DNA of 56,030 nucleotides. It comes from an uncultured Paraprevotella sp. (GTDB lineage: Bacteria > Bacteroidota > Bacteroidia > Bacteroidales > Bacteroidaceae). The stretch is taken from the NCBI GenBank assembly GCA_944319925.1, contig CALUFQ010000016.1, forward strand, positions 1-56,030, read 5' to 3'. Shown here piece after piece: positions 5,588 to 26,363 of this stretch. The position numbers were made by a program, and so were the translations under genes. The notes below the pieces were generated by a model that had not been told where the DNA came from, did no database searches, and was given only the letters and a program-made list of their open reading frames with translations. The stretch's first letter is position 1, and each line of letters starts with the position of its first letter.

Positions 5588-5795
5588 CAACTAATTTTTG
5601 ATTTGAAACAGGACACACCCGTTTTTCACCCGCCTCCGTCCCGCCAAGAAACGACCGCGTCCGGCAGAAAAACCAAAGTCAAGCCACAGTCGGCTATCCA
5701 CGCACAGGCCGCAGGAGGACGGATTCCATAACGGGGCAAGAAATGCGCCCCCTGCGCACATCCTTCCATTGACAGAATGAACTTCCGGGTGCGCG

Positions 5796-6254
5796 TTGAC
5801 ATTTTGCTCATTTTCGCCTTCTGAGATTCGCGTATTCGGCCGCCGGGCCGGGACAGCGCGGAAAGAACGCAGCCACACGCGCCTTGCGAAAATCAGAATG
5901 TCGCGGAATTCCCTCCAAACCCGCCCTTTTGACAGAGCACGAGGCACTCCCGGCGCGGAAGCCCGACCGGCGGGAAAGCCCAATGGAGGATTCCGCCGAC
6001 AAAATGACACGGGGAACGTGTCCGGGAAAAAGTCCCAACGGGAAAGAAAAACGCCCCCGGAGCCGCCGCGAAAAAGTTTCTGTACCGGGATTTTTTCGTC
6101 CGAGCCCCGAAATAAAAATTCCGAGCCCCGAAAAAAGAATTCCGGGGCTCGGATTTTCGCGTTCCGGCCCCGAAATTTCTCGTCAGACTGCTCCAAAAAG
6201 TGAATGACTCCGATAAAATCTTGCACAGAAACCCCGTTTTGTGCAAAAAAATCG
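5796..6254 (+). repeat. dispersed non-coding repeat element, copy A
   Basis: This stretch shares five blocks, in the same order, with the minus strand of 26238-25775 (copy B). (1) TTGACATTTTG..TCATTTT at 5796-5814. (2) CCGGGACAG followed by AAAnAACGCA and TGCGnAAATCA at 5848-5898. (3) CCGACAAAATGAC at 5996-6008. (4) A 25-nt block at 6085-6109 containing CGTCCGAGCCCCG, 24 of 25 identical. (5) A 34-nt hairpin block at 6221-6254 with TTGCACA and TGTGCAAAAAAATCG, 30 of 34 identical. Between 4 and 5 lie direct and inverted copies of CCGAGCCCCGAA (6100, 6121, inverted at 6140). Open frames cross it on both strands but no frame is shared between copies, so it looks non-coding. It occupies the mutS/flavin-reductase divergent gap. 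No terminal repeats or target duplication were found. Confidence 0.75.
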
Positions 6255-6390
6255 CTCAAAAATCGGCTATTTGGGCCGGATTGCGCAAAGGTCGCGTCAC
6301 GAAAATCATCCGAAACGGAACAATTTGTCTGTTTTCACAGGCATTTCATGACATCTTGAAAGATATAAATTTCGAATTTTCCGTATGGAC

Positions 6391-6810: not shown

Positions 6811-7335
6811 ATGAATAAGATAGAAATATCGCAGCTCAAAGAGAATTTTTTCGAAACCATCAGCAAGGAATGGATGATTGTGTGTGCCGGAAAGCCCGGC
6901 CATTACAATATGATGACCGCTTCGTGGGGCGGAATCGGGTGGTTGTGGAACAAGCCTGTGGCTTTCGTCTTTATCCGTCCGGAACGCTACACTTTTGAAT
7001 TTTCGGAGCAAAACGACTTCATGACGCTTTCTTTCCTCGGCCATTCGGAAGAAGCCCGCAAGATTTACCAGCTTTGCGGTTCAAAATCGGGACGGGATGT
7101 GAACAAGGCTGTTGAAAGCGGGCTGCGCCCCGTGCCAATGGAAGAAGGCAGGGGAGTGGCTTTTGAACAAGCAAGGCTCACGCTTGTCGGTAAAAAACTA
7201 TATTCCGACGACTTGAAACCGGAAGCTTTTGCCGACCCCTCACTCATCGACAAATGGTATGGCACACATGGCGGAATGCACAAAATGTATGTGGTGGAAA
7301 TCACGGAAGCTTTCGTGCAGGAAAATGCAGAATAG
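6811..7335 (+). CDS. flavin reductase family protein (FMN-binding split barrel)
   Basis: A 174-residue protein with the flavin-reductase-like FMN-binding split barrel. It starts with a short helix, then the strand region MIVCAGKPGHYNMMTASWGG, and later FVFIRPERYTFEF, typical of the Bacteroides members of this family. Such proteins bind FMN and reduce flavins or act as flavin-dependent reductases with NAD(P)H. The physiological substrate is unknown. It has its own promoter and ends 79 nt before leuS, so it may read into that operon. It is probably cytoplasmic. Confidence 0.85.
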   Translation: MNKIEISQLKENFFETISKEWMIVCAGKPGHYNMMTASWGGIGWLWNKPVAFVFIRPERYTFEFSEQNDFMTLSFLGHSEEARKIYQLCGSKSGRDVNKAVESGLRPVPMEEGRGVAFEQARLTLVGKKLYSDDLKPEAFADPSLIDKWYGTHGGMHKMYVVEITEAFVQENAE

Positions 7336-7414
7336 GGGAGTTATCAAAAAATGAACAGGATATCATCATCTTGTTATTTCAAATATAGAAAGAAACAAAT
7401 CTATTTAAAATAAA

Positions 7415-10252
7415 ATGGAATACAACTTCAGGGAAATCGAGCCGAAATGGCAGCAATACTGGGTGGAACACCAAACCTACAAAGTCACTGAAAGCAAAGG
7501 CAAAAAGAAATACTACGTGCTGAACATGTTCCCTTATCCCAGCGGGGCGGGGCTTCATGTGGGTCATCCGCTGGGCTACATCGCCTCGGACATCTATGCA
7601 CGCTATAAACGCCTGCAAGGCTTCAACGTGCTGAACCCCATGGGATATGATGCCTACGGGCTTCCCGCCGAACAATATGCCATACAGACGGGACAGCACC
7701 CGGCCATCACCACGGCCGCCAACATCAACCGCTACCGCGAACAGCTGGACAAGATTGGCTTCAGTTTCGACTGGGACCGTGAGGTGCGCACCTGCGACCC
7801 GGCTTACTACCACTGGACGCAGTGGGCTTTCCAAAAAATGTTCAACAGCTACTACGACAACAAACGCCAACAGGCGCGCCCCATCGAAGAACTCATTGAA
7901 AAGCTCGCAAAGACGGGAACAGAAAGCTTGGACGTGGCTTGCTCGGAGGAACTGGACTTCACGGCTGATGCTTGGAACGCCATGGACGAAAAACAACAGC
8001 AGGAAACACTGATGAACTACCGCATCGCCTATTTGGGCGAAACAATGGTGAACTGGTGCCCGAAACTGGGCACGGTGCTGGCCAACGACGAAGTGGTGGA
8101 CGGCGTGAGCGAACGCGGCGGCTATCCGGTCGTACAAAAGAAAATGCGGCAATGGTGCCTGCGTGTAAGTGCCTATGCACAACGTTTGCTGGACGGGCTG
8201 GAAACCATCGACTGGACAGACTCATTGAAAGAAACGCAACGCAACTGGATTGGCCGCTCGGAAGGCACGGAAGTGGTCTTCAAGGTGAAAGACAGCGACA
8301 AGTCGTTCACCATCTTCACCACCCGCGCCGACACGATGTTCGGCGTGACTTTCATGGTGTTGGCCCCCGAAAGCGAACTGGTGCCCGAAGTGACCACGGC
8401 GGAACAGCAGGCTGCAGTGGATGCCTACCTGGATGCCACCAAAAAGCGGACGGAACGCGAACGCATCGCCGACCGCCGCGTGACGGGCGTGTTCTCCGGC
8501 TCGTATGCCATCAACCCCTTTACGGGCGAAGCCATTCCCATTTGGATCAGCGACTACGTGCTGGCCGGTTATGGCACAGGGGCCATCATGGCCGTCCCCG
8601 CACACGACAGCCGCGACTATGCCTTTGCCAAACACTTCAACCTGCCCATCATCCCGTTGGTGGAAGGTTGCGACGTGAGCGAAGAGAGTTTCGATGCCAA
8701 AGAAGGTATCGTCACCAACTCGCCACGCGCCGACGTGAAGCCCTACATTGACTTCTCACTGAACGGGCTGACCATCAAGGAGGCCATCGCCGCCACGAAA
8801 AAATACGTGGAAGAACACCAGTTAGGACGAGTGAAGGTGAACTATCGCCTGCGCGACGCCATCTTCAGCCGCCAACGCTATTGGGGCGAACCGTTCCCCG
8901 TGTATTACAAAGACGGCATGCCCTACATGATTCCGGAAGAATGCCTGCCACTGGAACTGCCGGAAGTCAGCAAATTCCTGCCCACGGAAAGCGGCGAACC
9001 GCCATTAGGACATGCCACCCGCTGGGCTTGGGACACGGTGAACCGCTGCGTGACGGACAATTCGCGGATAGACAATGAAACCGTTTTCCCGCTCGAACTG
9101 AACACCATGCCAGGATTTGCCGGAAGCTCGGCCTACTACCTGAGATACATGGACCCGAAGAACGACAAAGCCCTGGTGGACAAAGACATCGATGCTTACT
9201 GGCAAAACGTGGACTTATACGTGGGTGGAACAGAACATGCCACGGGACACTTGATTTACAGCCGTTTCTGGAACAAATTCCTGCACGACTACGGATACAG
9301 CTGCACGGAAGAACCGTTCCAGAAACTCATCAACCAAGGAATGATACAAGGCCGCAGCAACTTCGTCTATCGCATCAAGGACACCAACACTTTCGTGTCG
9401 CTGAACCTGAAAGACCAATACGATACCACACCATTGCATGTGGACGTGAACATCGTGTCGGGCGACGTGTTGGACATCGATGCCTTCCGCAAGTGGCGTC
9501 CGGAATACGAAAACGCGGAATTCATCTTGGAAGACGGGAAATACGTCTGCGGCTGGGCCATCGAAAAGATGAGCAAAAGCATGTTCAACGTGGTGAACCC
9601 CGACATGATTGTGGAGAAATTCGGTGCCGACACGCTCCGCCTGTATGAAATGTTCCTCGGCCCGGTGGAACAGAGCAAACCTTGGGACACGAACGGCATA
9701 GACGGTTGCCACCGTTTCCTGAAGAAATTCTGGGCCTTGTTCTATGACCGCACGGGCAACTTCCTTCCAAAGGAAGGCGAAGCCGGAAAAGACGCGCTGA
9801 AATCGCTGCACAAGCTCATCAAGAAAGTGACAGCCGACATCGAAGCGTTTTCCTACAACACGTCCATCAGTGCATTCATGATCTGCGTGAACGAGCTTTC
9901 CGGACAGAAATGCCACAACAAAGACATCCTGCGCACACTGGTTATCCTGATGGCACCCTTTGCCCCGCACATCGCCGAAGAACTGTGGCATACGCTGGGC
10001 GAAGACAGCAGCGTATGTGATGCCGAATGGCCTGCATGGGACGAAGCATACCTGACGGAAGACACCATGAAACTGAGCATCTCCTTCAACGGAAAAACGC
10101 GCTTCACAATGGATTTTCCTGCAGACACAGACAATGCCACCATCGAAAAGACGGTATTGGCCGACGAACAGACCCAAAAATACATCGAGGGTAAACAAAT
10201 CGTCAAAGTCATCATCGTGCCTAAACGCATCGTGAACATCGTATTGAAATAA
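7415..10252 (+). CDS. leuS: leucyl-tRNA synthetase
   Basis: A class I aminoacyl-tRNA synthetase that charges tRNA-Leu. The HIGH-type motif HVGHPLGY lies in residues 40-60 after MFPYPSGAG, and the KMSKS motif is in [14 protein letters not shown] near residue 715. The CP1 editing domain carries the threonine-rich [10 protein letters not shown] and the [15 protein letters not shown] stretch. At 945 residues it is longer than the ~860 of E. coli, as is usual in Bacteroidetes, which have insertions. An AT-rich leader precedes the ATG. A strong hairpin follows the stop. Confidence 0.98.
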
Positions 10253-25561: not shown

Positions 25562-25774
25562 ATTTTTATGATAATGGTTGTGCAAAACTAATGAAAAAGA
25601 TGGATATTTCTGTGTTTTTGAATTTGAAAAATGAGTGTGTGGCGGAGAAAAAGTCTTTTTGCACGGATGTCATAATGTTACCTGACGGGTGAGAAATCCG
25701 GCAAAGTGTTGTTTTTTGAGTGGTTTTCCATACCGGACTTTTGACGTTTCGCCTCGAAATAGAGGAAAATCACC

Positions 25775-26238
25775 CGATTTTTTTGCACAAAGCGGGTCTT
25801 TTGTGCAAAAAAACACAAAGAATTTTGCTTTTTCCGGCTTGCCGTATGGGAAAATCCGGGGCTCGGACGGAAAAATCCCGGCTCCGAAAAAGAAATTCCA
25901 AGGCTCGAAATTTTTTTTCCAGGGCTTGAAATTTTTCAGGCGGGCTTCAACACCGTTTTTTTCATCTGCCTTGAGTTTTTTCGCGTACAAGTCTCAAGAG
26001 TCATTTTGTCGGAAAAATCCCTTTCCGGCTTTCACTCCATGTGAAATTCCGCGCAGAACGGCCCGGAGACGTGGCAGCATGAAAGCCAAACGGTCTGTTT
26101 GCTGGATTTTTGATTTCCGCATACCGCGCGAGAATGCGTTTTTTGCAGCCTGTCCCGGTTGTGGCCCCGTGGAAACGATTCTCGGGAAGGCTGGAATGAC
26201 ACTTTGTCAAATCGGGCTGCAAAATGACAAAATGTCAA
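25775..26238 (-). repeat. dispersed non-coding repeat element, copy B
   Basis: Read on the minus strand this repeats the five blocks of 5796-6254 in the same order. Block 1 is at 26238-26221 (TTGACATTTTGTCATTTT). Block 2 is at 26158-26108 (CCGGGACAG then TGCGGAAATCA). Block 3 is at 26012-26000 (CCGACAAAATGAC). Block 4 is at 25881-25857, 24 of 25 identical to copy A. Block 5 is at 25808-25775, a hairpin block 30 of 34 identical. Between 3 and 4 are degenerate GAGCC/AAGCC units (CGAGCCTTGGAA, CAAGCCCTGGAA). It fills the gap between nadB and the META gene, which are divergent. No open frame is conserved with copy A. Confidence 0.75.
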
Positions 26239-26363
26239 TCCGGAACGCAAGCTGTTCCCGCAGTCCGTTTTTTGAAGATGCGGCGCAATCACAAAAGTTT
26301 GAACGGATACCCATAGTTTCTAAAAACATTTTAAACGATTCAGCGGTATCCGGCAAAAAGAGC

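Follow-up and report, generated by a model that had tools for sequence, protein, structure and literature searches.

A high-copy, non-coding repeat family in Paraprevotella, probably a non-autonomous mobile element of about 595 bp

Introduction

Two non-coding stretches of one Paraprevotella contig, read on opposite strands, carry the same short blocks of sequence, which raises the question of what kind of element they are copies of and what keeps the blocks alike. Both lie in the window analysed here, the whole 56,030-nucleotide stretch of contig CALUFQ010000016.1 from an uncultured Paraprevotella sp. The original prediction described a dispersed element of about 460 bp with a second copy, and named a mobile repeat, a regulatory RNA family and a chromosomal structure site as options. 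Dispersed non-coding elements of gut Bacteroidales seem to be little described. A search of the open-licence PMC literature returned no title or abstract on such an element in Paraprevotella, Prevotella, Bacteroides or Bacteroidetes; the main case in these papers is the oral Porphyromonas gingivalis, whose BrickBuilt element comes nearest by description.

Here, we describe a real, high-copy, lineage-restricted and non-coding repeat family in Paraprevotella. With a probability of about 0.65, we regard these ~595-bp repeats as a new family of mobile DNA, non-coding and non-autonomous, a reading within which we infer both a recognising enzyme and cis-acting islands.

Results

The two window copies resemble each other far more than expected by chance, with the best segments at E 1.3e-8 and 4.7e-8. 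The two near-identical blocks quoted in the original prediction are exact, matching at 24 of 25 nt (6085–6109 against 25881–25857) and at 30 of 34 nt (6221–6254 against 25808–25775). The claim of five blocks in one order stands for five segments; however, seven share E-values of 0.004 or better, and two of these, arising from internal repeats, cross the order. Comparison of full copies gives an element of ~595 bp, longer than the predicted 460 bp. The core of the first window copy, which belongs to family A, spans 5769–6360 on the plus strand (592 bp); full copies match end to end over it, and conservation falls outside. The second window copy spans 25665–26238 on the minus strand (26238–25665 as read), as placed by end-to-end alignment with the A and C consensus sequences, and is the lone member of subfamily B in its genome. 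The predicted second copy is indeed homologous end to end, but it represents another subfamily: B matches of at least 200 bases elsewhere in the genome are 65–69% identical, with closer ones found only among short pieces.

The source genome is a 3.11-Mb draft in 105 contigs, and the search for further copies proposed at the outset proved productive. Positions 5790–6260, used as a query against the whole genome, gave 40 scored places among 104 first-look candidates, the query included. All 40 cover at least 399 of the 471 bases, and the 39 non-query places are 88–94% identical. The conserved 23-mer GGGATTTTTTCGTCCGAGCCCCG (6087–6109) occurs at 50 sites with at most three mismatches, compared with none for its reversed control. 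Family A comprises 53 places, ~90% identical, all of which match its sequence. Forty are full length, and the 53, which include pieces mostly at contig ends, are counted as places rather than as proven separate copies. Family C, with an internal identity of about 86–94%, counts 22 places at least about 109 bases long, more than half of which lie at contig ends. The A, B and C consensus sequences can be aligned end to end, at about 60% identity between A and C. With so many pieces at contig ends, the family breaks assemblies, and it occupies intergenic gaps.

Outside the source genome, family A was found in one other genome, G103, among 300 other genomes of the family, judged on the best two candidates per genome. 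The B query, run against 18 genomes of the genus, matched in the source genome and, via A copies, in G103. A degenerate core pattern, searched over a collection of genome contigs from which records very near the window's may be absent, returned six stretches, five of them in the uncultured Paraprevotella MAG BRZ_KA__bin9, which we read as G103; the sixth, in a Desulfobacteraceae MAG, is probably a chance match.

In the window, the A copy lies between mutS and a flavin reductase gene, and the B copy between a META-domain protein gene and one for a FAD_binding_2 protein, which we take as nadB. Placement between divergent genes, as originally predicted, is correct for these two copies but not typical. 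Among the 29 family A copies that could be classified with a crude gene caller, four lie between divergent, 14 between tandem and 11 between convergent genes, with 11 of 40 A and three of 10 C rows left unclassified. The intergenic gaps look like mosaics of other dispersed units (e.g., TAGGAGGTGCGGCATTCCTGCCGCAC..., GGGGTCGTAACGACCC... and CTCCTCCGCCTTG...AGGGG), joined at recurrent borders in the flanks of many A and C copies, such as L048, L049 and L060. One mosaic unit of ~180 bp is also present in G103 stretches (L177, L178).

Most of the 40 full A copies run from TTGACAGAATGAC to CATGACATTCTGAT or close to these limits, and the C core runs from TTGACATTTTGCT to GACATTCTGNCAGA; the ends of both families are imperfect inverted repeats of TGACAGAATGTCA. 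In the window copy, the left terminal repeat is TTGACAGAATGAA (5769–5781, consensus TTGACAGAATGAC) and the right one TGACATCTTGA (6349–6359, consensus ATGACATTCTGAT). The left A terminus and the reverse complement of the right one, ATCAGAATGTCATG, have CAGAATG[AT]CA in common, and the boundary beyond is not sharp. The left end contains a second TGACA site, TTGACATTTTGCTCATTTT (5796–5814), found at the same position in A, B and C and in two loci of another genus (L239 and L240). It is followed by a head block, TGAGATTC-N32-AAAGAACGCA, with a span of 50 (5822–5871). Further right lie the 23-mer, an inverted repeat CCGAGCCCCG ... CGGGGCTCGG identified from the sequence (6121–6152), and the inverted repeat TTGCACA ... 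TGTGCAA (6221–6246), which is nearly invariant across A, B and C.

On the minus strand, the B copy repeats this arrangement. Its left terminal site TTGACATTTTGTCAT, a TGACA-N3-TGTCA palindrome, lies at 26224–26238, the second site TTTGACAAAGTGTCATT at 26195–26211 and the head block CGAGAATC-N32-AAAAAACGCA, again with a span of 50, at 26135–26184. The 23-mer follows at 25857–25879, the TTGCACA/TGTGCAA block at 25775–25808 and a degenerate right terminal site, TGACATCC, at 25665–25672. Across A, B and C, the common islands are, in order, doubled TGACA sites in the left terminus; TGAGAWTC-N32-AAARAACGCA; TGCGGAAA..CAAA; CCGACAAAATGACA; GC-rich inverted repeats; AAAAAGTAAA; TTGCACA...TGTGCAA; CAAAAG..G.GTCACGGAAAT, most marked in A and C; and finally TGACATTCTG at the right terminus. 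Two A copies on contigs C15 and C81 of the source genome (L055, 1388–1979, and L061, 1395–1986) have the loop of the CCCCG...CGGGG hairpin (6121–6152 in the window) inverted, reading GAATTCTTTTTT for AAAAAAGAATTC, as if by a tiny inversion between the stem arms.

The left flank, counted by eye, is of two kinds in 44 of the 45 A copies in which it is known. Twenty-six carry an optional extension ending ...CTTCCA (type i, '...TGCGCACATCCTTCCA', at 5742–5768 on the plus strand of the window), and 18 end in ...CTATA or close to it (type ii). A complete ~95-bp type i unit was followed by A in 21 of 21 cases, a count that leaves out six truncated matches and draws on loci of the source genome mostly fetched because they hold A. 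On the family tree, type i requires 14 changes against a shuffled mean of 15.3 (167 of 500 shuffles as low) and type ii requires 10 against 13.5 (nine of 500). We considered the flank type as an inherited end of the element and provisionally set this aside, since its clustering on the tree is absent or weak, despite the 21 of 21 type i units followed by A.

Comparison with other genomes revealed empty sites. The sister genome G103 has 32 bp in place of window positions 5652–6383 and 83 bp in place of about 25656–26314, and the A locus of the window measures only 23 bp in G048 and 28 bp in G022. Two further A loci (L025, L038) are empty within the 400 kb of G103 examined. In all, G103 is without the element at four of the five loci whose two flanks were recovered close together; L054, with flanks about 5 kb apart, was left out, and the other two-flank rows matched short repeats only. 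The alignments indicate that the element is an insertion. At the filled locus, the G103 copy L201 shares both flanks with the source-genome copy L006/L029, and the element is present in both genomes. Of the other fetched G103 copies (seven in all), L203, L204 and L207 each share one flank with source-genome copies, L205 has ~436-base matches to two different loci that we read as repeats, and the flanks of L202 and L206 matched none of the source-genome loci compared. The A-bearing G103 contigs C87, C25 and C8 have aligned stretches 93–100% identical per kilobase to the source genome, while the flanks of empty loci are 82–95% identical. The G103 copies may have come in by recombination, or the A-bearing contigs may be chimeric or stray. 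On a further contig, G103:C27 (L221), identity to the source genome jumps from 84–91% to 96–99.6% at 14–15 kb, close to an A copy.

We next looked for a target duplication and for a mover. No fixed-length target-site duplication was detected in 39 A and 10 C rows for k of 2–9, where the best excess was about five copies at k=2. The test covered offsets of −30 to +15 and −15 to +45, with L088 included, L063 excluded for lack of a flank, and two C rows representing one place. The end pattern TTGACANWWTGNCAT matched 21 places in the source genome and none in the control, all inside or at the end of known copies; as the exact pattern recovers only about five of the 53 A places in this draft genome, an autonomous relative would easily be missed. 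The Y1 transposase profile of RAYT proteins (PF01797) gave no match at E 0.001 in the genome and was detected in five of 14 control genomes. Family A gave no match in plasmid and phage collections, two core patterns none in viral contigs, and the head patterns none on records of this kind. A phage or plasmid origin was accordingly rejected; a head search with L165 and L250 gave a single plasmid match (E 0.3), which we took as chance.

The alternative that survives best, though we consider it unlikely, is a passive intergenic cassette that spread together with flanking dispersed units by homologous recombination or template switching and has no mover of its own. Many A copies are flush with other dispersed repeats, which counts against the mobile-repeat reading and leaves room for spread by recombination between repeats. 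The lack of a target duplication, the inverted hairpin loop in two copies and the identity jump on G103:C27 would also fit a passive cassette, although the jump may come from a chimeric metagenome contig. The mobile-repeat reading is further weakened by the negative tests for a target duplication and a mover, by the locus filled in both genomes, by the three G103 copies that share one flank, and by a left boundary that is not sharp, with two flank types weakly or not clustered on the tree. However, the same two ends are kept in different flanks, and alleles shared among copies avoid the islands, a constraint that passive copying does not call for.

Comparing the changes that copies share with those private to one helps to tell whether selection acts on spreading or on use by the host. 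If the islands serve the host at each copy, new changes in any copy should avoid them; if they serve spreading, avoidance should be greatest for changes transmitted by an active source. We counted alleles in 39 A copies: L088, 20% from consensus, was left out, as were the 26 of 593 consensus positions at which B or C has a gap. At the 256 sites invariant among A, B and C, 51 alleles occur in two or more copies, against 165 at the 311 other sites; private alleles number 67 against 105 (odds ratio for the shared/private contrast 2.06, Fisher p 0.0013). Private alleles alone are rarer in islands at borderline significance (p 0.054), and family C (nine copies) shows the contrast in the same direction, not significantly (p 0.34). 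With all allele classes taken together, invariant sites vary less within every base class. These counts support the originally proposed selection on the islands. Avoidance is strong for shared alleles but weak for private ones, which is consistent with a role of the islands in spreading more than with a host function at every site; mutation hot spots could mimic part of the contrast.

The family A tree is star-like, with a median end branch of 0.068, inner branches mostly about 0.01 and five of 43 inner branches starred. It was built by a quick method without bootstrap from 46 rows (39 A copies of the source genome, six of G103 and L088). Pairwise divergence and the base-class comparison drew on 40 A copies, divergence also on nine C copies (one C place having been fetched twice). 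The closest pair among the 40 aligned full A copies of the source genome, a set to which contig-end pieces do not belong, is 5.4% apart. The family may now be silent and its burst over; near-identical recent copies would hide at the contig ends of the draft.

These data also bear on whether the copies are host-used sites, i.e., chromosome-organising or regulatory sequences, with TGACA-N3-TGTCA as putative binding sites together with hairpins, selected at each copy. The palindromic sites and the islands conserved between subfamilies agree with such a role, as do the slight rarity of private alleles in islands and the placement in gaps of head-module relatives from other genera, five of which precede the presumed next gene start by 589–664 bp. 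Nevertheless, avoidance of islands by private alleles (67/256 against 105/311) is much weaker than by shared ones (51/256 against 165/311), the sister genome does without the element at four of five compared loci, and A copies have no fixed relation to gene starts, so that we judge host use to be improbable.

The regulatory RNA option received weak support. The RNAalifold consensus energy for 24 copies (−50.1) is well below that of 15 column shuffles (−27.6 ± 6.1), but the z-score is −3.7 on each strand (15 shuffles each). As folding beats shuffles equally on both strands, the signal looks like DNA palindromes rather than one RNA. The proposed check for covariation found some double change in 20 of 67 predicted pairs, which largely mirrors the divergence of A from C. 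The hairpin kept best, TTGCACA/TGTGCAA, is nearly constant and therefore shows almost no covariation. Rfam 15 gave no match in the window and none at the gathering threshold in 11 loci; below it, these loci gave ten miRNA- or snoRNA-type matches at E-values up to 5, with mir-146 (E 2.7) inside B. A structured non-coding RNA gene family is therefore very improbable. The last candidate, fragments of a broken protein gene, can be practically dismissed even though a 222-aa ORF crosses the A copy, given that variation among 39 A copies shows no 3-base periodicity, their lengths (591–595) change in single-base steps, A, B and C do not share their longest open frames, as originally noted, and none of four ORFs across the copies reached the Pfam cut-off (one match scored 13.7 bits, the cut-off being 27).

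Discussion

Copy number, subfamilies, empty sites in a sister genome and the star-like tree support the non-autonomous mobile repeat among the options originally named. In the mechanism that we propose, a recombinase or transposase encoded elsewhere would recognise the inverted TGACAGAATGTCA-type ends, doubled at the left, together with the adjoining head block. The element would then be copied or moved into intergenic gaps without a fixed-length target duplication. The interior islands (the head block, the TTGCACA/TGTGCAA palindrome and the GC-rich inverted repeats) may be cis-acting parts that the mover requires, and copies would decay after insertion.

MITEs are non-coding, multi-copy elements with short inverted terminal repeats and no enzyme of their own. 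The family described here is likewise non-coding, multi-copy and dispersed, and MITE-like in behaviour, but it cannot be filed as a MITE, because the test for target duplication failed (39 A and 10 C rows) and no parent transposon was found among the TTGACANWWTGNCAT places, a weak test that recovers about five of 53 A places. Its interior also differs from that of MITEs in being alignable over the full length between subfamilies ~60% identical (A and C consensus). REP, BIME and REPIN sequences associated with RAYT are palindromic, intergenic and high-copy, with units of 20–40 bp. The present family has palindromic parts and is also intergenic and high-copy, whereas its unit is about 595 bp and its genome gave no Y1 transposase match. 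Neisserial intergenic mosaic elements and Correia elements are repeated units that lie in mosaics between genes; the likeness to our mosaic units between genes is by description only, and the host is different.

P. gingivalis, an oral species, belongs to the same order of bacteria as Paraprevotella. Its BrickBuilt MITE is described as intergenic and non-coding, with small inverted-repeat ends, 19 copies in one strain and a limited host range (PMC4596501). These traits, apart from the copy number, are by description also seen in our family, whose inverted-repeat ends are imperfect. BrickBuilt is described as consisting of tandem 23-nt units, whereas here there are only 2.2 copies of a 21-nt unit.

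The head module, i.e., the palindrome followed by TGAGAWTC-N32-AAARAACGCA, turns up in further genera. The left 300 bp, modelled on sequence alone (R1) and run on the best four candidates per genome in 393 genomes of the order with E-values per genome, matched three genomes: the source genome, G013, which represents a different genus of the family (E 8.6e-8 and 6.2e-4), and G672 (E 2.4e-4), where the match looks to be in a coding stretch. Based on A, B, C and the G013 place, the pattern TGAGAWTC-N25..50-AAARAACGCA occurs at 59 places in the source genome, four in G103 and 23 in 22 of the other 397 genomes, the G013 place included, compared with one place in all 399 genomes for its reversed control. 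The span is exactly 50 in 11 of these 23 places; among the 11, three (G053, G134 and G105) read like one protein-coding gene; L237 (G048) and the matches with other spans are doubtful. One place, L239 in G261, also has TTTGACA-N3-TGTCA at nearly the spacing seen in B.

Because a second head model (R2) was built from rows chosen with the pattern, its matches support the module only where they are new. One new place lies within 400 kb of G013 (L263, E 7.6e-5), and in other Paraprevotella R2 matched L167 (E 3.5e-6), L165 (E 0.0011) and, weakly, L164 (E 0.011). The R2 places in L165 and L167 are next to TGACATTCTGTCA, matched with no more than one mismatch. Across 400 kb of G160, R2 recovered the place already known and added two weak matches (E 0.0027 and 0.035). 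The head module is probably an old, low-copy feature of the family.

More tentatively, and at odds we would put well below even, the repeats could belong to a Bacteroidaceae-wide class of non-coding mobile DNA with a ~100-bp head, consisting of the palindrome TGACAGAATGTCA and then (C)TGAGAATC(G)-N32-AAAAAACGCA. Such a class would be low-copy in several genera, would have exploded to some 75 places in one Paraprevotella, and would be moved by an enzyme without target duplication, with signals read over its full 600 bp. Should the head module shared across genera prove to be where a widespread recombinase acts, identifying that enzyme would define a new transposition system of common gut bacteria.

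At five loci of other genera, long gaps begin with the head module (L239, L246, L272 at 8303–8976, L279 at 6999–7669 and L263 at 933–1612). The presumed next gene start is 589–664 bp away, resembling B and its nadB-type gene, at about 620 bp. In two other Paraprevotella, a hairpin GAGAATC-N40-GATTCTC stands beside TGACATTCTGTCA some 450–700 bp upstream of nadB (L165, 3285–3400; L167, 985–1090, with one mismatch in TGACATTCTGTCA). We also asked whether the head generally takes the form of a hairpin TGAGAATC...GATTCTC, and set the idea aside: it has few places, and GAGAATC gave five rows where shuffled heptamers gave 0–3, three of the rows (L072, L215, L218) being one identical sequence. Finally, three genomes of genus g30 (L249, L250, L252) share TCTGAGAATCGTTTC...CCTCGGGTCGAAAAAACGCA and a similar upstream stretch; in two of the three, a stem encloses the shared sequence, which is possibly a shorter repeat of its own.
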